From the NCBI GenBank assembly GCA_025350245.1, contig JANXYG010000073.1, positions 1 through 44,183 on the forward strand: 44,183 nucleotides of DNA, given 5' to 3'. A model generated the notes under the pieces. The model did not search any database, was not told where the DNA came from, and worked only from the letters and a program-made list of their open reading frames with translations. The first letter of the stretch is position 1. Every line of letters starts with the position of its first letter. Shown here one piece after another: positions 601-6,349 of the stretch. The stretch comes from Betaproteobacteria bacterium (GTDB lineage: Bacteria > Pseudomonadota > Gammaproteobacteria > Burkholderiales > Ga0077523). Position numbers and translations under genes: made by a program.

Positions 601-2421
601 TCACGCCGCTATCGCCTCGCCTTCCTCCTGCTGCTGCAAGCGCCACATCTGCGCGTAGGTGGCGTCTTTCTCCAGCAGTTCGCGGTGGGTGCCGCGCTCG
701 ACGATGCGGCCATGTTCCATCACCAGGATCTGGTCGGCGTCGACGATGGTCGAGAGGCGGTGCGCGATGACCAACGTGGTGCGGTCGGCGGCGATGCGGG
801 CGAGTTCTTCCTGGATCGCCTTCTCCGATTTCGAGTCGAGCGCGCTGGTGGCTTCGTCGAAGATCAGGATGCTGGGATTCTTGAGGATCGCGCGGGCGAT
901 GGCGACGCGCTGCTTCTCGCCACCCGAAAGCTTGAGGCCGCGCTCGCCGACGCCGGTCTCGTAGCCGTCCGGCAGCGTGACGATGAAGTCGTGGATGTGG
1001 GCTGCACGAGCGGCTTCGAGCACTTCTTCGCGCGTGGCCTCGGTGCGACCGTAGGCGATGTTGTAGAAGATGGTGTCGTTGAACAACACGGTGTCCTGCG
1101 GGACGATGCCGATGACCGCGCGCACGCTCTTCTGCGTGACCAGCCGGATGTCCTGGCCGTCGATGGCCACGCGACCGAGCTGCACGTCGTAGAAGCGGTA
1201 GAGCAACCGCGCCAGGGTCGACTTGCCTGAGCCGCTGGTGCCCACCACCGCCACGGTCTTGCCGGCACCGATCTCGAAGCTCACGTCGTGCAGGATCTGA
1301 CGCTTGGGGTCGTAGAAGAAATCCACGCGCTCGAAACTCACCTTCGCGCCGCGCAGGGCCAGATCGGGCGCGCCCGGCGGATCGGCGATCTCGCGGTTTT
1401 CCTTGAGCAGACGGAACATCTTGTCCATGTCGGTGAGCGACTGCTTGATCTCGCGATACACCATGCCCAGGAAGTTGAGCGGAATGTAGAGCTGGATCAG
1501 CAGGCCGTTGACCAGCACCAGGTCGCCCAGGGTGAGCTTCTTCTCGACCACGCCCTGCGCGGCCAGCACCATCAACAACGTAACCGCACAGGCGATGATC
1601 AGGCTCTGGCCGATGTTGAGCAGGCCGAGCGAGGCCTCGTTGCGCACTTCGGCGGACTCGAATTTGCGCAGATTCTCGTCGTAGCGGCCGGCCTCGAATT
1701 CCTCATTGTTGAAGTACTTCACCGTCTCGTAGTTGAGCAGGCTGTCGATGGCGCGCGAGTTGGCCTTGGAGTCGAGTTCGTTGGCGCGGCGCCGGATGTC
1801 CATGCGCCATTCGGTGACCCAGAAGGTGAAGCCGATGTAGATGGCCACCGCCGCGAACGTCACTGCCGGAAAGCGCCAGTCGAACTTGGTGAGCAGCACC
1901 ACCGCCACCAGGCCGAACTCCAGGATCACCGGGATGATCGAGAACAGCATGTACGACAACATGGTCGAGATGCCGCGGGTGCCGCGCTCGATGTCGCGCG
2001 AGACCCCCCCGGTCTGGCGCTCGAGGTGGAAGCGCAGCGACAGCGAGTGCAGATGCCTGAACACCTGCAGCGCCGCCCGCCGGATGGCGCGTTTGGCCAC
2101 GCGCACGAATACGATGTCGCGCAGCTCCGCGAACAGCGTGGTCGACAGGCGCAGCAGCCCGTACATCAGCAGCAGGGAGAACGGCAGCACCAGCACGGCG
2201 GTCGAGGCGTCGAGCGAATCGATGATGCGCTTCATCACCAGCGGCACGCCGACGTTGGCAACCTTGGCCGCGATCAGGAAGCCGAGCGCGAGGGCGACGC
2301 GACCCTTGAACTCGAGCAGATACGGCAGCAGCATGCGCACCACGCGCCAGTCGCTGCGTTGCTTGACTGCGGGCGACCCGGCGACGGGCACTGCGGCGGG
2401 AATGGCGGAATGGGGATTCAT
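601..2421 (-). CDS. Atm1-type ABC exporter, fused permease and ATPase (half-transporter)
   Basis: This 606-residue protein has an N-terminal six-helix ABC exporter domain (about residues 30-330) and a C-terminal ATPase. Visible motifs are Walker A GTSGSGKST near residue 392, signature LSGGEKQR near 497, Walker B ILIFDEATSALD near 518 and the H-loop VIAHRLSTI. The segment GLLNIGQSLI followed by QLYIPLNFLGMVYREIKQ is characteristic of the Atm1/HMT1 branch, which exports glutathione-linked or metal-linked compounds across the inner membrane as a homodimer. Start ATG 2421 (MNPHSAIP) is chosen because the upstream 300 bases in frame look non-coding and overlap the integrase stub. It is a single gene; the next gene on this strand is the HDOD remnant 7 bases downstream. 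Substrate is not deducible. Confidence 0.88.
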   Translation of the reverse strand: MNPHSAIPAAVPVAGSPAVKQRSDWRVVRMLLPYLLEFKGRVALALGFLIAAKVANVGVPLVMKRIIDSLDASTAVLVLPFSLLLMYGLLRLSTTLFAELRDIVFVRVAKRAIRRAALQVFRHLHSLSLRFHLERQTGGVSRDIERGTRGISTMLSYMLFSIIPVILEFGLVAVVLLTKFDWRFPAVTFAAVAIYIGFTFWVTEWRMDIRRRANELDSKANSRAIDSLLNYETVKYFNNEEFEAGRYDENLRKFESAEVRNEASLGLLNIGQSLIIACAVTLLMVLAAQGVVEKKLTLGDLVLVNGLLIQLYIPLNFLGMVYREIKQSLTDMDKMFRLLKENREIADPPGAPDLALRGAKVSFERVDFFYDPKRQILHDVSFEIGAGKTVAVVGTSGSGKSTLARLLYRFYDVQLGRVAIDGQDIRLVTQKSVRAVIGIVPQDTVLFNDTIFYNIAYGRTEATREEVLEAARAAHIHDFIVTLPDGYETGVGERGLKLSGGEKQRVAIARAILKNPSILIFDEATSALDSKSEKAIQEELARIAADRTTLVIAHRLSTIVDADQILVMEHGRIVERGTHRELLEKDATYAQMWRLQQQEEGEAIAA

Positions 2422-2689
2422 CGGTAGACGATTGGGTCGGCAACCGGACATTGAAAGGGCGCACAGTCGATGCACGCCCCGATGCCGGGTGCCCGTGGAT
2501 CGGACACCTCGCATTATGACCGACCCGATCGGCGACCGACCTACTCGACCGCGGATGTTGCCCGGTGCCGCGGCAGTCGCACCTCGATACCGCGCCCGCG
2601 CTGGTCCAGCCAAGGTCTCACCCCTCCGCCGCGCGCCACCGAGAGGATCATCCCCCTCGCGAGCACCCTCGAGCCCGGTCGAGGTGCCG

Positions 2690-2810
2690 ATTTTCGGTGC
2701 GGATGGAGTAGTGTTTTGACCTGAGAGCGTCACCTACTCACGGAAGTGGCGTGGGTTGCGGTGCAACAAGATTCGACACGGTGGCGGCGAGGTGCGTGGC
2801 GGTATTTCAT
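2690..2810 (-). pseudogene. intI: 5' stub of an integron integrase (intI) gene
   Basis: On the minus strand, bases 2731-2693 encode DALRSKHYSIRTE, matching the N-terminal core-binding-domain signature of integron integrases (typically R.RHYSLRTE near residues 20-35). The match ends after about 14 residues (then NRHLDR), and no catalytic RHRY residues follow before the ABC exporter gene. An ATG at 2810 directly after the SOS box would place the motif at the expected distance, but it is in another frame and a TGA sits just upstream of the motif, so at least one frameshift and a large 3' deletion are needed. The motif is short, so this call leans on context: divergent orientation to the cassettes and the SOS box. 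Confidence 0.5.
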
Positions 2811-2813
2811 GAA

Positions 2814-2829
2814 CTGTTTTTGTATACAG
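2814..2829 (-). promoter_or_regulatory. LexA (SOS) box
   Basis: CTGTTTTTGTATACAG has the CTGT-N8-ACAG form of the proteobacterial LexA operator. Read on the minus strand it is CTGTATACAAAAACAG, one base away from the known umuDC operator core of Escherichia coli. It lies 4 bases upstream of the ATG at 2810, so LexA bound here would block transcription toward the integrase stub. LexA control of intI is established for several integrons. Confidence 0.6.
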
Positions 2830-3239
2830 CTATCTGGTCCGATACTCGGCGTCAAACGACGCGGCGTTTTGCCCCATTTCAGTCCGACATTTCGTAGGGC
2901 GTTGCGCCGCACGAGATCTGAAGCACTTGGCCGGTAGGCATCCTCGCTTCGTTTCACCAGATTGGCGGCTTCCCGTCCGCGGCGCGTATCGGCGGCGGGC
3001 CAGGTGTTCAGTTGGTGTCGCGCCGCTCGTCGTGTCCCCGACCTTTCGCCAATCACCAGCATCGCGTTCGCTGCCAGCAATCCGTCTCCGTTTCGGCGCC
3101 TCGGCAATGCTGCCGCCGAGCGTCTGCGACCATCACCCCGGCACCGTGCCGGTTCGGTGTTCCTCGCGACGTGCAGTCGCACTATTCTTCCGGCATGCAC
3201 AGCCTCGCTTTCCACTATCCAGGCTTCAATGCTGTCCGA
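2830..3239. other. Non-coding stretch between SOS box and first attC-like site
   Basis: These 410 bases hold no recognisable gene. A minus-strand frame stays open through most of it but has no SD-like start and an arginine-rich composition typical of antisense GC-rich DNA. No GTTRRRY core that could mark attI or an earlier attC was found on the plus strand. It would be the position of attI and a first cassette in an intact integron; if one was there it is no longer recognisable. Confidence 0.5.
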
Positions 3240-3330
3240 GCCCAACCCGGCGCTCGGGCGGACTCGCGGAGCAGGGCGTTTCCTCTACGGGTGGCATTCC
3301 GTCGCGCGCCGCACAGCTCAAACGTTGGGC
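3240..3330 (+). other. attC-like recombination site 1
   Basis: The 91-base segment starts with the inverse core GCCCAAC (3240-3246) and ends with the core GTTGGGC (3324-3330), exact complements of each other and both matching the attC consensus (RYYYAAC ... GTTRRRY). Inside, GGGCGGACTCGCG and its partner CGCGCGCCGCAC form an imperfect inverted repeat, as expected of the L''/L' boxes of an attC hairpin. It precedes the ParE-type cassette. Confidence 0.65.
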
Positions 3331-3391
3331 GTCTTAAGAATACCGTCACCAATCGGCGTAGAGTTAACGCGGTATTTTGGAGGCCTTGAAA

Positions 3392-3616
3392 ATGGAAACC
3401 CAGCTAGAAATCTTGGAATCAGAGGCACTAAAACTCACGCTTGGTGAGCGCGCTGCGCTCGCCCAACGACTTCTGGCCAGCCTCGACGAGGATTCGAAAA
3501 TCGAGGACGCGTGGGCGGCCGAGATCGAACGTCGCATCGCCGATGTCGAGAGCGGAGCGGTTCAGGTCATTCCGATCGCGGAGGCTCTGGCAAGGGTACG
3601 TGCCGCGCTGAAGTGA
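3392..3616 (+). CDS. Antitoxin of a ParE-type toxin-antitoxin cassette (addiction module component family)
   Basis: A 74-residue acidic protein starting METQLEILESEALKLTLGER and containing LLASLDEDSKIEDAWAAEI, the pattern of the short addiction-module antitoxin family (TIGR02574 type) whose members pair with ParE/RelE toxins. It should bind and neutralise the toxin encoded directly downstream and autoregulate the pair. Start ATG 3392 is favoured by GGAGG at 3379-3383, 8 bases upstream. The stop TGA overlaps the GTG start of the toxin. The gene sits 61 bases after attC-like site 1, as the first gene of an integron cassette. Confidence 0.75.
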   Translation: METQLEILESEALKLTLGERAALAQRLLASLDEDSKIEDAWAAEIERRIADVESGAVQVIPIAEALARVRAALK

Positions 3617-3906
3617 ATCTGGTCATTCTTCCACTCGCCTTTGGCGAGTTGCACGATGCCGCCGCCTTTTATGCCGTGAGCGCGAATACCGAGCTTGGCC
3701 TCGCGTTCGTCGCCGAGTTTCACCGAGCCGTAGATGCTATCTTGGCGAATCCCCTCGTCGGCGCAGTCTTCCGTGGGACCCGGCGCCGTTATGTTCTCCG
3801 CCGATTCCCCTACAGTGTTTTCTATCAAGTTACGTCCGAAGAAATTCGGGTTGTTGCGGTCGCTCATCACCGCCGGCGTCCTTCGTATTGGGCAGGTCGC
3901 AAGTAG
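3613..3906 (+). CDS. ParE/RelE-family toxin
   Basis: A 97-residue basic protein with the ParE/RelE fold pattern: an N-terminal strand and helix (LPLAFGELHDAAAFYAVSA), LGLAFVAEFHRAVDAILANP in the middle, then RRRYVLRRFPYSVFYQVTSE and IRVVAVAHHRRRPSYWAGR. ParE members poison DNA gyrase and RelE members cleave mRNA on ribosomes; the sequence does not decide between them. GTG at 3613 is the start that gives the usual length and translational coupling (GTGA overlap) to the antitoxin. The gene is followed after 27 bases by attC-like site 2, so antitoxin and toxin form one cassette. Confidence 0.78.
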   Translation: MNLVILPLAFGELHDAAAFYAVSANTELGLAFVAEFHRAVDAILANPLVGAVFRGTRRRYVLRRFPYSVFYQVTSEEIRVVAVAHHRRRPSYWAGRK

Positions 3907-3933
3907 CTCTCTGCAACGCGTGCCGGGCAAGAC

Positions 3934-4005
3934 GTCCAACCCTTCCATCGAGGGGGTGACTAAAAGGCTGCGCCTTTTAGTCACCCCTCATGTCAAACGT
4001 TGGGC
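3934..4005 (+). other. attC-like recombination site 2 with long perfect hairpin
   Basis: Begins with GTCCAAC (3934-3940) and ends with GTTGGGC (3999-4005). Between them lies a very strong inverted repeat, GGGGTGACTAAAAGG and CCTTTTAGTCACCCC around a 5-base loop (CTGCG). The flanking TCAAAC before the core is shared with site 1, as is the GTC after it. Size (72 bases), core sequences and single-strand folding potential all fit attC sites. It lies between the ParE-type cassette and the HicBA cassette. Confidence 0.72.
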
Positions 4006-4100
4006 GTCACCGCACTCGCCTTATGCTCTCCGGTGGAGGCTGCGTCCTGCGTAGGCCCGAAAGAGAGATAATTGCCTCTTCGGACATCCGGGAGCACCAC

Positions 4101-4307
4101 ATGGAACTGACCGCCGTTCTGACACATGCGGAAGAAGGCGGGTTCATCGCCCTCAATCCCGAAACGGGCACGACGACACAGGGTGAGACGATCGAGGAAG
4201 CGATCGACAATCTGAAGGACGCCACGGCTCTGTACCTGGCTGAGTTCCCCCTGACGAAAGGGGGCCATCCGGTCGTTACGATGTTTACAGTCCCCGTGAG
4301 TGCCTAA
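4101..4307 (+). CDS. hicB: HicB-family antitoxin
   Basis: A 68-residue protein reading MELTAVLTHAEEGGFIALNP, ETGTTTQGETIEEAIDNLKD and ATALYLAEFP, the degenerate RNase H-like fold of short HicB antitoxins. HicB masks the HicA mRNA interferase and often represses its own operon; the short form here lacks an added DNA-binding domain. Start ATG 4101 follows GGGAG at 4090-4094. The 3' end overlaps hicA by 8 bases. Order hicB-hicA is the reverse of the classical hicAB order but is common for this short family. Confidence 0.8.
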   Translation: MELTAVLTHAEEGGFIALNPETGTTTQGETIEEAIDNLKDATALYLAEFPLTKGGHPVVTMFTVPVSA

Positions 4308-4515
4308 GCTCCCGCGGGTCTCTGGTGCCGAAGCGATAGGGGCACTGAAAAGACTGGGTTTCGTGATGGTGCGCCAAAGCGGCAGTCACGTCGTTCTACG
4401 GCGAGACGGAATCGGTTGTGTGGTTCCCTTGCACCGCGAACTGAAAGTTGGGACCCTCGCGGGTGTACTGCGGCAGGCACAAGTTCACGCAGACGACTTC
4501 ATTGGGGCACTATGA
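4300..4515 (+). CDS. hicA: HicA-family toxin (mRNA interferase)
   Basis: A 71-residue protein with the dsRBD-like HicA fold: PRVSGAEAIGALKRLGFVMV, then RQSGSHVVLRRDG containing the catalytic histidine (SH), then VPLHRELKVGTLAGVLRQAQ. HicA cleaves mRNA until bound by HicB. The GTG start at 4300 lies inside the end of hicB, giving translational coupling. The stop codon is followed one base later by the inverse core GCCCAAC of attC-like site 3, so the hicBA pair fills a second cassette. Confidence 0.85.
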   Translation: MPKLPRVSGAEAIGALKRLGFVMVRQSGSHVVLRRDGIGCVVPLHRELKVGTLAGVLRQAQVHADDFIGAL

Positions 4516-4516
4516 C

Positions 4517-4607
4517 GCCCAACCGTGCGCTCGTTCGGACCGTCCGCCTGCGGCGTCCGGTTTGCAGCCGCGCGCTCGGCGTTTCGAAGCGCACCCTGGG
4601 GTTGTGA
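4517..4607 (+). other. attC-like site 3, left half good, right core degenerate
   Basis: Starts with the inverse core GCCCAAC (4517-4523) directly after hicA. An inner inverted repeat GTGCGCT/AGCGCAC (4525-4531 and 4587-4593) fits an attC stem. The expected right core is only GTTGTGA (4601-4607), two mismatches from GTTRRRY. It would be the terminal site of the array, where the bases after the crossover G derive from another site, or it has decayed. Confidence 0.45.
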
Positions 4608-4630
4608 CAAGAGCACAACCGTATCGACCC

Positions 4631-5200
4631 CTACCAGCCGAACCCCGGCGAGAACCCGAAACCGAGACCGCCATGCGGATGGCCCCAGCGAGGGCCCCAT
4701 CCGGGGCCGTAACCGTAACCCCAACCGGGCCCCCAGAACGGATCGTAGTAGCGCGGACCGCCGATCGAGTAACCCCACGAAAACTGGCTGCGGGGAGACA
4801 GGCGCGGCGCGGACTTGCGCGCTTCCTCCTGCTTGCGCAGCTCTTCGCGGGCAGACCAGTCGCGCTTCTCGGCGTCGAGCGCGCGCTTCTTCCAGTAGTC
4901 GGGGTCGTCGTCGCCATCAAGGGCCGAGGAGGTCTTGCCGCCACCCAGCTCCTGGGCCAGGCGGCGCCACTGGGCGGCCTGCTGCGGATCCTTCGCGGTG
5001 CCGAGGCCGCGCTCATGGATTTCGGCGAGCGCGGTCGCCGCCTGGGCATCGCCGGCATCCGCCGCCGCCACCAGCAGGCGCATCGCGGTCGGGAAGTCCT
5101 GGCGCAGATAGGCATCCCAGCCCTGCCGGTAGTCGGCGGTCTGGGCATTCGCGGCGGCGGCTGCCGCCAACAGCAGAAGAGAGGTGGCGATCCGGCGCAT
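4631..5200 (-). CDS. Exported protein with Sel1/TPR-like helices and a Gly/Trp/Tyr-rich tail
   Basis: A 189-residue protein with a clear signal peptide (RRIATSLLLLAAAAAANAQ) and predicted cleavage after NAQ. Residues about 25-85 (RQGWDAYLRQDFPTAMRLLV, then AAADAGDAQAATALAEIHER, then GLGTAKDPQQAAQWRRLAQE) look like one or two Sel1/TPR repeats. A charged stretch follows, and the last 45 residues are rich in G, W, Y, P and F (GPGWGYGYGPGWGPRWG). Similar small exported Sel1-like proteins occur in betaproteobacteria without known function; the tail suggests adhesion to membranes, polysaccharide or partner proteins. It is convergent with the integron relic and separated from it by only 23 bases. 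Function unknown. Confidence 0.7.
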   Translation of the reverse strand: MRRIATSLLLLAAAAAANAQTADYRQGWDAYLRQDFPTAMRLLVAAADAGDAQAATALAEIHERGLGTAKDPQQAAQWRRLAQELGGGKTSSALDGDDDPDYWKKRALDAEKRDWSAREELRKQEEARKSAPRLSPRSQFSWGYSIGGPRYYDPFWGPGWGYGYGPGWGPRWGHPHGGLGFGFSPGFGW

Positions 5201-6071: not shown

Positions 6072-6197
6072 GAGTGACTCCATTGCGTGGGGTGACCCGC
6101 GGGACGCGGGGGTCGACATTCGCGACCGGGCATAGCTCTTCGAGCAGGTTGCATGCCACTAGTTCAGGTGGAAGACGGCGAATGCAACGGTGTCGCC

Positions 6198-6257
6198 GAC
6201 ATTCGACATTGCCAGCGGGCGACTGCCGACATTCGACATTGCCAGCGGGCGACTGCC
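6198..6257. repeat. 30-bp direct tandem repeat, two perfect copies
   Basis: Two identical adjacent 30-base units start GACATTCGACATTGCCAGCG and end GGCGACTGCC, followed by a third, degenerate partial copy (GAAATTCGCCATTGC). They lie in the divergent intergenic region between the small gene at 6071 and the gene at 6350, where promoters for both must be. Function as a regulator-binding array is possible but not shown. Confidence 0.9.
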
Positions 6258-6349
6258 GAAATTCGCCATTGCGGATGTCATCGTGCACCGTGCAAGACGG
6301 CTAGAATCCGGGGTTCATCGAGCACCATCGCCCCCGGAGAGCCCGCCAC

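Follow-up and report, generated by a model that had tools for sequence, protein, structure and literature searches.

The region at 2669-4560 carries two toxin-antitoxin (TA) pairs and sits between an exporter gene and a Sel1-like gene, which raises the question of whether it is what is left of a chromosomal integron and, if so, of which one. We addressed this question in a window (the whole stretch of DNA that was analyzed) of 44,183 nt from genome G000, a draft in 156 contigs. The features that we recognized are listed in Table 1. As detailed below, the region very probably derives by decay from a copy of the chromosomal integron native to the host lineage. Formally, the remnant is a CALIN composed of an attI remnant, a gene-less cassette, a PF09720/ParE cassette, and a HicBA cassette with a broken attC.

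Table 1. Features of the integron remnant and of its flanks, in coordinates of the window
Feature	Coordinates	Strand	Remarks
Atm1-type ABC exporter gene, native left flank	601..2421	-	PF00664, PF00005
intI 5'-end remnant	2669..2794	-	~45 codons with an internal stop and a 4-residue gap; start codon gone
Leader + attI	2798..2894	+	81% (78/96) to C67 over the 97-bp leader
LexA-type box, CTGT-N8-ACAG	2814..2829	.	between intI and attI; 8/8 core bases
Cassette 0, without convincing gene	2895..3324	+	
attC of cassette 0	3240..3330	+	R3 52.6 bits, E 7.4e-13 (whole-window search)
Cassette 1 (PF09720 antitoxin + ParE toxin)	3325..3999	+	limits are the G^TT points of the two full attC
PF09720 / TIGR02574 antitoxin gene	3392..3616	+	59.1 and 46.8 bits
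ParE toxin gene	3613..3906	+	PF05016 (ParE_toxin) 42.7 bits; start overlaps antitoxin stop (GTGA)
attC of cassette 1	3934..4005	+	R3 65.3 bits, E 1.8e-16 (whole-window search)
Cassette 2 (HicBA), 3' end lost	4000..4560	+	
HicB-like antitoxin gene	4101..4307	+	DUF7387 27.8 bits vs cut-off 27.9, just under
HicA toxin gene	4300..4515	+	PF07927 57.1 bits, over cut-off
attC of cassette 2, 5' half only	4517..4560	+	L' and R' missing
Sel1-like gene, native right flank	4631..5200	-	orthologs adjoin exporter at six congener loci examined

As for the attC sites, we searched for paired RYYYAAC and GTTRRRY boxes, with G-T pairing permitted. Both full sites adopt the canonical geometry, with 7/7 R pairs, 8/9 and 9/9 L pairs, spacers of 5 and 6, one extrahelical base, R and L boxes that pair as expected, and the conserved GTT in R'. 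In 100 first-order Markov shuffles of 44 kb, attC-like matches occur 0.52 times on average, with a maximum of 4, and 100 shuffles of 2.1 kb gave none. The covariance model R3, which was built without the window's sites and the C39 homologue while including relatives of the second site, finds both sites where the first-pass annotation had placed them. Scores obtained for the window with model R2 are not independent because R2 contains the window's own sites, and Rfam returned nothing at gathering scores. The second site folds much better than its shuffles (z -7.0 and -7.65), and the dfrB10 cassette of a class 1 integron, as found in one record, has an attC that shares 91.8% identity with 3938-4010. 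For the first site, folding energy gives no advantage over shuffles (z 0.29 and -0.72), and its case is therefore made by the covariance models. The half site annotated at 4517 resembles the 5' half of attC sites of congeners (93% identity over 44 bp to the attC of L221), but it is a weak relic, 4517-4580 scoring just 8.2 bits with R3 (E 3.1).

On the other side of the first cassette, the proposed intI motif divergent to the cassettes proved real. The remnant aligns with residues 2-47 of the IntI encoded on contig C67 of the same genome (50% identity in a 46-column alignment, E 9e-5), and its first codon is ACG. This protein match is weak on its own, and a genus-wide fragment search at 1e-5 did not list the remnant. 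Its identification therefore relies on the DNA match (79% identity between 2759-2895 and the C67 intI-attI region) and on its position adjoining attI. No further intI was detected in 2421-2670 above shuffles, 101 of 200 of which were equally good. Consequently, no intact intI adjoins attI at this locus. The only complete integrase of the genome over the TIGR02249 cut-off is on C67 (469 bits against 265, spanning the whole profile), a different contig of the draft assembly. The CTGT-N8-ACAG box that had been noted is present, and the intact C67 integron has a LexA-type box in the same relative place, likewise with 8/8 core bases. While leader and attI are homologous to C67, the attI crossover core is GTA instead of the expected GTT, and this attI is probably inactive. 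A promoter consensus scan of 2600-4700 found none.

The first-pass annotation held that only two addiction cassettes were left and that most cassettes had been lost. However, a third, gene-less cassette stands first, adjoining attI, and material loss is visible only in the truncated third attC. Cassette 0 resembles the first cassettes of two platforms in the same genome, C39 (79% identity over 426 bp) and C7 (78% over 266 bp, where the contig ends). A coding role for it is unconvincing, its stop-free frames being disrupted by single-base indels between copies. In cassette 1, both TA families score over their cut-offs and form one operon. In cassette 2, the antitoxin gene comes first; its HicB-like product is well under the cut-off for HicB_lk_antitox (14.1 against 27), and the gene is 78% identical to a cassette gene in L157. 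Contrary to the possibility, raised with the first-pass annotation, that the same sequences have no link to integrons, relatives of both pairs elsewhere adjoin attC sites. The antitoxin/ParE relatives lie between attC sites in L150 and ahead of one in L221. The HicBA relatives adjoin attC matches of uneven strength (30.7 and 14.9 bits in L157; 25.2 and a weak 13.7 bits in G010), the G010 cassette being 80% identical to cassette 2 over 537 bp.

All four TA genes are open frames, and the three that were compared with relatives show codon conservation, with differences at codon positions 1/2/3 of 12/10/39 for HicB, 22/10/41 for HicA, and 28/13/46 for the PF09720 antitoxin. Both pairs therefore probably still work, from what would be their own promoters. 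Flanked by two full attC, the ParE cassette might in principle be cut out in trans by the C67 IntI, which is intact. HicBA is predicted not to be excisable as a normal cassette because its attC has no R'. That the TA genes act as stabilizers of the remnant is plausible, but the relic does not by itself lend support to the stabilization idea, as the first-pass annotation had it, since other explanations exist for the retention of its cassettes.

We then compared the locus in six of 11 congeners. Exporter orthologs are 73-84% identical at the six loci examined (three are partial, at contig ends); in the window, the mechanical open reading frame of the exporter extends to 2733, its start at 2421 being set by homology. 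The distance from exporter to Sel1-like gene is 72-386 bp in these six congeners versus 2,209 bp in the window, and no convincing attC is found between the two genes in any of the six (best match 13.4 bits, E 0.52). The site is thus empty in all six. In 12 genomes of the genus, DNA of the left junction yielded only a 28-bp match, in one congener, and the intergenic DNA has diverged too far for exact insertion borders to be drawn. Together, the attI leader, the intI remnant, the two good attC, and the empty site in the six congeners examined uphold the earlier reading of an integron minus its integrase. In the scenario that we propose, a platform (5' intI, LexA box, leader, attI, and cassettes), presumably produced by duplication, would have inserted between the exporter and Sel1-like genes in this lineage. 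Of its intI, ~45 codons are left, its final attC has shed its 3' half, and three cassettes are still present.

The remnant has company in its genome. Truncated 5' intI ends are present at five other G000 loci (C155, C39, C7, C41, and C73), and the seven G000 sequences cluster in a tree with a support of 0.83 (0.90 without C41), although the position of the remnant inside the group has a support of 0.000. The remnant thus appears to be one of several copies, not the end state of the genome's sole integron. The divergence between copies is large, with leaders 67-87% identical among five G000 platforms, which would fit a laterally acquired integron that decayed here separately, the other G000 copies being independent acquisitions as well. 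We consider this unlikely because truncated copies cluster with the intact integron found in the same species or species pair, not only in G000 (0.83) but also in G005 (1.00) and G006/G007 (1.00).

Alternatively, the locus might be no relic but a working satellite platform, its cassettes being moved by IntI in trans. Two full attC in the window, an intact intI on C67, and evidence for trans use at other truncated platforms (see below) are in line with this idea. We nevertheless regard it as quite improbable, since attI has a GTA core, the array ends in a broken attC, and cassette 0 has diverged (81%) about as much as the leader (81%). More remote still is off-target insertion, in which an IntI encoded elsewhere set cassettes at a secondary site, creating a CALIN that never had its own integrase or attI. 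This is one proposed origin of CALINs, according to the sections of PMC8618304 consulted, and the genome has an intact intI. However, such an event would not bring a leader, LexA box, attI, and 5' intI remnant, which here are proximal and in the canonical divergent order, and the homology that links 2759-2895 with the intI-attI region of C67 runs directly counter to it. A decayed copy of the lineage's own integron thus remains our preferred interpretation.

Truncated platforms are not restricted to G000. Across the genus, there are 14 N-terminal-only intI fragments, 11 of which have attC arrays, versus no C-terminal-only fragments, although short C-terminal pieces may have escaped. This count leaves aside G004:C191, whose start coincides with a contig edge, the divergent C105 of G000, which lies in two frames, XerC/D-like matches, and the intI genes of G002 and G003 that are interrupted or split. 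As an order-level control, we used 80 genomes, 77 of them outside the genus. Among the matches listed for the latter, irrespective of contig ends, nine fragments are N-terminal-only versus five C-terminal-only; 5'-only fragments thus occur outside the genus too, with a weak asymmetry. Omitted here were genes in two adjacent pieces (G077, G034, G070, and G046), an internal piece (G022:C33), a G079 piece, near-full-length matches, low-identity other tyrosine recombinases, and matches ending near residue 322, which were taken as XerC/D.

Three truncated platforms in G006 and G007 share one common truncation, which points to a truncated ancestor, yet from the attI crossover on they have three different first cassettes. 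This suggests that their attI was used in trans after truncation. Arrays might also have been changed by homologous recombination or gene conversion between platforms, which we judge less likely because attI and attC have only a short core in common. When the flanks of G007 C22 were searched in G006, no flank match was found. It is therefore conceivable, though we put it forward only tentatively, that integrons of the genus repeatedly yield satellite platforms on which the single intact IntI of a genome acts in trans, and that the remnant in the window is a decayed member. Such platforms would retain the leader and attI, often together with the LexA box, whereas only the 5' end of intI is left. 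If this is true, a cell whose genome combines one integrase with several truncated attI platforms would have several cassette loci at the cost of a single integrase.

We also asked whether attI is conserved more than intI in truncated copies, and dropped this test, which comprised 14 pairs. Two pairs were intact-intact controls (P 0.53 and 0.57). P was low in G006C39 (6e-5) and G005C35 (0.02), 0.15-0.24 in the four further truncated copies tested from G005 and G007, and 0.52-0.92 for C155, C7, and C73 against C67 and for G008. Low values for the remnant and for C7 versus C155 are invalid, since the compared stretch overruns the end of homology.

Relics of this kind are already known, and the proposed pattern of satellite platforms is the novel part. 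Like CALINs in general, the window has at least two attC (both found by R3) and no intact integrase nearby. How a CALIN arose usually has to be deduced, whereas this one shows its origin by intI loss directly, because attI, the LexA box, and the 5' intI remnant are in place and the site is empty in the six congeners. IntegronFinder is described as detecting no attI outside class 1 integrons (PMC9024848, in part), and it would therefore list such platforms simply as CALINs, or miss them when they have fewer than two attC. TA systems are commonly found in cassettes, and excerpts of PMC8618304 and PMC7923331 describe a CALIN with five or six of them; in the window, a remnant of only three cassettes has the families PF09720/ParE and HicBA. 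According to the portion of PMC2426708 available to us, almost one-third of intI are pseudogenes, 20% of carriers have more than one intI, and many pseudo-integrons apparently arose by intragenomic duplication. However, interrupted or odd-sized intI were counted in that paper, whereas we describe short 5' ends with attI, several per genome. A further parallel is in Xanthomonas, for which the available text of PMC12444791 reports inactivated integrons with a deleted or truncated intI and a retained array and, in about half of the genomes, CALINs at a distance from the main locus. With two exceptions, that text places the Xanthomonas intI downstream of ilvD, whereas here several 5' truncated copies occur at different loci in addition to an intact one.

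Contig C97, which is the window, belongs to the draft genome G000, an assembly of 156 contigs totalling 3.99 Mb, with completeness 95.84% and contamination 1.05%. The two attC sites that the first-pass annotation had named there are present, as judged both by a scan for R''/R' boxes with L-box pairing and by a covariance model. The scan returned these two sites, the second on both strands; on 100 Markov shuffles it averaged 0.52 hits over 44 kb, with at most 4, and 0 over 2.1 kb. The covariance model, with which the whole window was searched, excluded the window's own sites and included relatives of the second (scores in the table). In an alignment of 13 attC sites, two rows of which are the window's own, 90.4% of cells are paired under the named attC structure; a shift of 1-3 columns lowers this to 23-44%. 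When compared with shuffles, folding was no better for the first site or for the third (4517 onward), and an Rfam search of the window gave no match at gathering scores. The 5' half of congener attC sites resembles 4517-4560 (93% over 44 bp with locus L221 of congener G002); beyond 4560 the third site diverges from them, and R' is absent.

Features of the window, including the decayed integron, and related loci
Feature	Position	Description
Short tandem repeats	138-333 and 6153-6290	seen as repeated peptides in several frames
intI remnant	2669-2794, minus strand	aligns to C67 IntI residues 2-47; 50% identity, one stop, 4-residue gap
Leader and attI	2759-2895	79% identity to C67 leader + attI, E 2e-27
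LexA-type box	2814-2829	8/8 core bases, likewise 8/8 in C67
Cassette 0	2895-3324	stop-free frames, disrupted between copies by single-base indels
First attC	3240-3330	52.6 bits
Cassette 1	3325-3999	PF09720 antitoxin and ParE toxin, ends overlapping
Second attC	3934-4005	65.3 bits
Cassette 2		distal cassette; HicB-like and HicA genes
Third attC	4517-4580	8.2 bits, E 3.1
Loci with short 5' intI ends	L206, L208, L209, L210, L212, L213, L214, L216, L024, L025, L027, L029, L204

The proximal end of the array aligns to contig C67 of the same genome, which carries an intact integron whose IntI scores 469 bits in a profile search (cut-off 265). The window's intI remnant is absent from the matches to an IntI query at 1e-5. 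The attI crossover core is GTA in the window and GTT in C67, C155, C7 and C73. Besides C67, 5' intI fragments occur in G000 on C155, C39, C7, C41 and C73, and a more divergent piece is found on C105. Past the 3' terminus of the intact C67 intI there is a PF09720 antitoxin relative (39%; L023:2250-2471).

Most gene-less Vibrio cassettes assayed show promoter activity, according to PMC11014356, so that cassette 0 may, by analogy, aid expression of the ParE cassette. Relatives of both toxin-antitoxin cassettes are cassettes elsewhere too. In a Gallionella MAG (L150), antitoxin/ParE relatives are flanked by attC sites of 30.7 and 41.8 bits, and in G002 (L221) they precede an attC of 51.7 bits. HicBA relatives adjoin attC matches of 30.7 and 14.9 bits in another MAG (L157) and of 25.2 and 13.7 bits in congener G010. 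The G010 hicBA copy looks decayed from its sequence, since hicB is interrupted early by a stop codon and the match to hicA is split in two; both genes are open in the window. Third codon positions hold most of the differences to relatives in the genes counted (HicB, HicA and the antitoxin). At positions 1/2/3, HicB differs from its L157 relative by 12/10/39 and HicA by 22/10/41, and the antitoxin differs from that of L221 by 28/13/46. On C100 of G000 (L223:5601-6269), a weak attC match is followed by another PF09720/ParE-like pair.

The array lies between an Atm1-type exporter and a Sel1-like gene, a locus that we compared in six of the 11 congeners (G004, G005, G008, G009, G010 and G011), chosen because the match to the Sel1-like protein reaches its last residues; it is partial in G002, G003, G006 and G007 and lacking in G001. 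In all six, 72-386 bp separate the two genes (2,209 bp in the window), and a search of the locus in these congeners found no convincing attC (best 13.4 bits, E 0.52). Therefore, the insert was most simply gained in the window's lineage. A second case is provided by G008, where a truncated platform (5' intI end, leader and attI) lies within a ~3.17 kb stretch; G009 has ~105 bp instead, with flanks 90-92% identical. G010 is less clean at this site, its left flank being followed by a 253-bp piece 74% identical to the inside of the G008 stretch.

Such truncated platforms recur across the genus. IntI query matches at 1e-5 were found in 12/12 genomes (in G001 by XerC/D-like matches only), intact-looking IntI in eight (G000 and G005-G011) and attC matches at E 0.01 in 11. 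We counted 14 N-terminal-only intI fragments (six in G000, three each in G005 and G007, one each in G006 and G008), always in a genome that also has an intact-looking IntI, and zero C-terminal-only fragments across the 12 genomes, although short C-terminal pieces may escape the search. The count leaves out G004:C191, which begins at a contig edge, the divergent, two-frame C105 of G000, the interrupted or split intI of G002 and G003, and XerC/D-like matches. Canonically oriented attC matches lie on the array side of 11 fragments, the exceptions being C7, whose contig stops within the first cassette, C41 and C73. Six fragments retain 8/8 core bases of the LexA-type box, and the rest retain 5 to 7. 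A FastTree analysis of the leader together with 5' intI clusters truncated copies with the intact integron from the species, or pair of species, in which they occur (support 0.83 for G000, or 0.90 without C41, and 1.00 for both G005 and G006/G007); G008C30 sits on a long branch next to the G008-G010 group (0.945). The genus is not alone in this pattern, since an order-level control has 5'-only intI fragments in other families as well.

The truncated platforms G006 C39, G007 C14 and G007 C46 are, by their sequences, descendants of one truncated ancestor, because their intI ends in the same non-intI sequence. Their first cassettes differ, the leader is retained up to the attI crossover in all three, and each genome has an intact intI elsewhere. 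The simplest reading of these sequences would be cassette exchange at attI after local intI loss; homologous recombination between platforms is its rival. The outer flank of G006 C39 matches G007 C14 (94.5% over 3,858 bp), while its platform plus ~230 bp more matches G007 C46 (92.8% over 698 bp), with which FastTree pairs it (0.97). Rearrangement or misassembly is possible at this joint because a many-copy repeat of G006 and G007 (~210 bp; L208:3689-3916) sits there, adjoining the truncated platform. The argument for attI exchange in trans is independent of orthology, since it needs the shared truncation alone. Within G000, cassette 0 homologues are the first cassettes of C39 (79%) and C7 (78%, truncated by the contig end). 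The C7 leader resembles the C155 leader (87%) more closely than the window's (72%), yet C7 has the cassette 0 homologue, so this cassette may have moved between platforms; its distribution would also be explained by its loss in C67 and C155.

Short 5' intI ends sit at several loci per genome, the majority alongside a leader, attI and an attC array, and one intact intI lies elsewhere. We found no description of several 5'-truncated attI platforms per genome in a search of open-licence literature, which already covers clusters of attC sites lacking an integron-integrase (CALINs), intI pseudogenes including intragenomic duplicates, CALIN mobilisation in trans, and toxin-antitoxin cassettes in arrays and CALINs (PMC2426708, PMC12444791, PMC9024848, PMC11023631, PMC8618304, PMC7923331, PMC12901181, PMC11014356). 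Among 72,556 plasmid records, 1,638 matched 2400-4700 of the window (eight at 90-95% and 1,630 at 80-90%), and the second attC is the matching segment in 20/20 of the matches listed, the top one among these reaching 91.8% over 3938-4010. In the one record inspected, a Pseudomonas plasmid (L001:4001-4073), the attC matched at 91.8% is that of the dfrB10 cassette of a class 1 integron, with aac(6')-Ib on its other side. This match ties an environmental chromosomal array to clinical cassettes.
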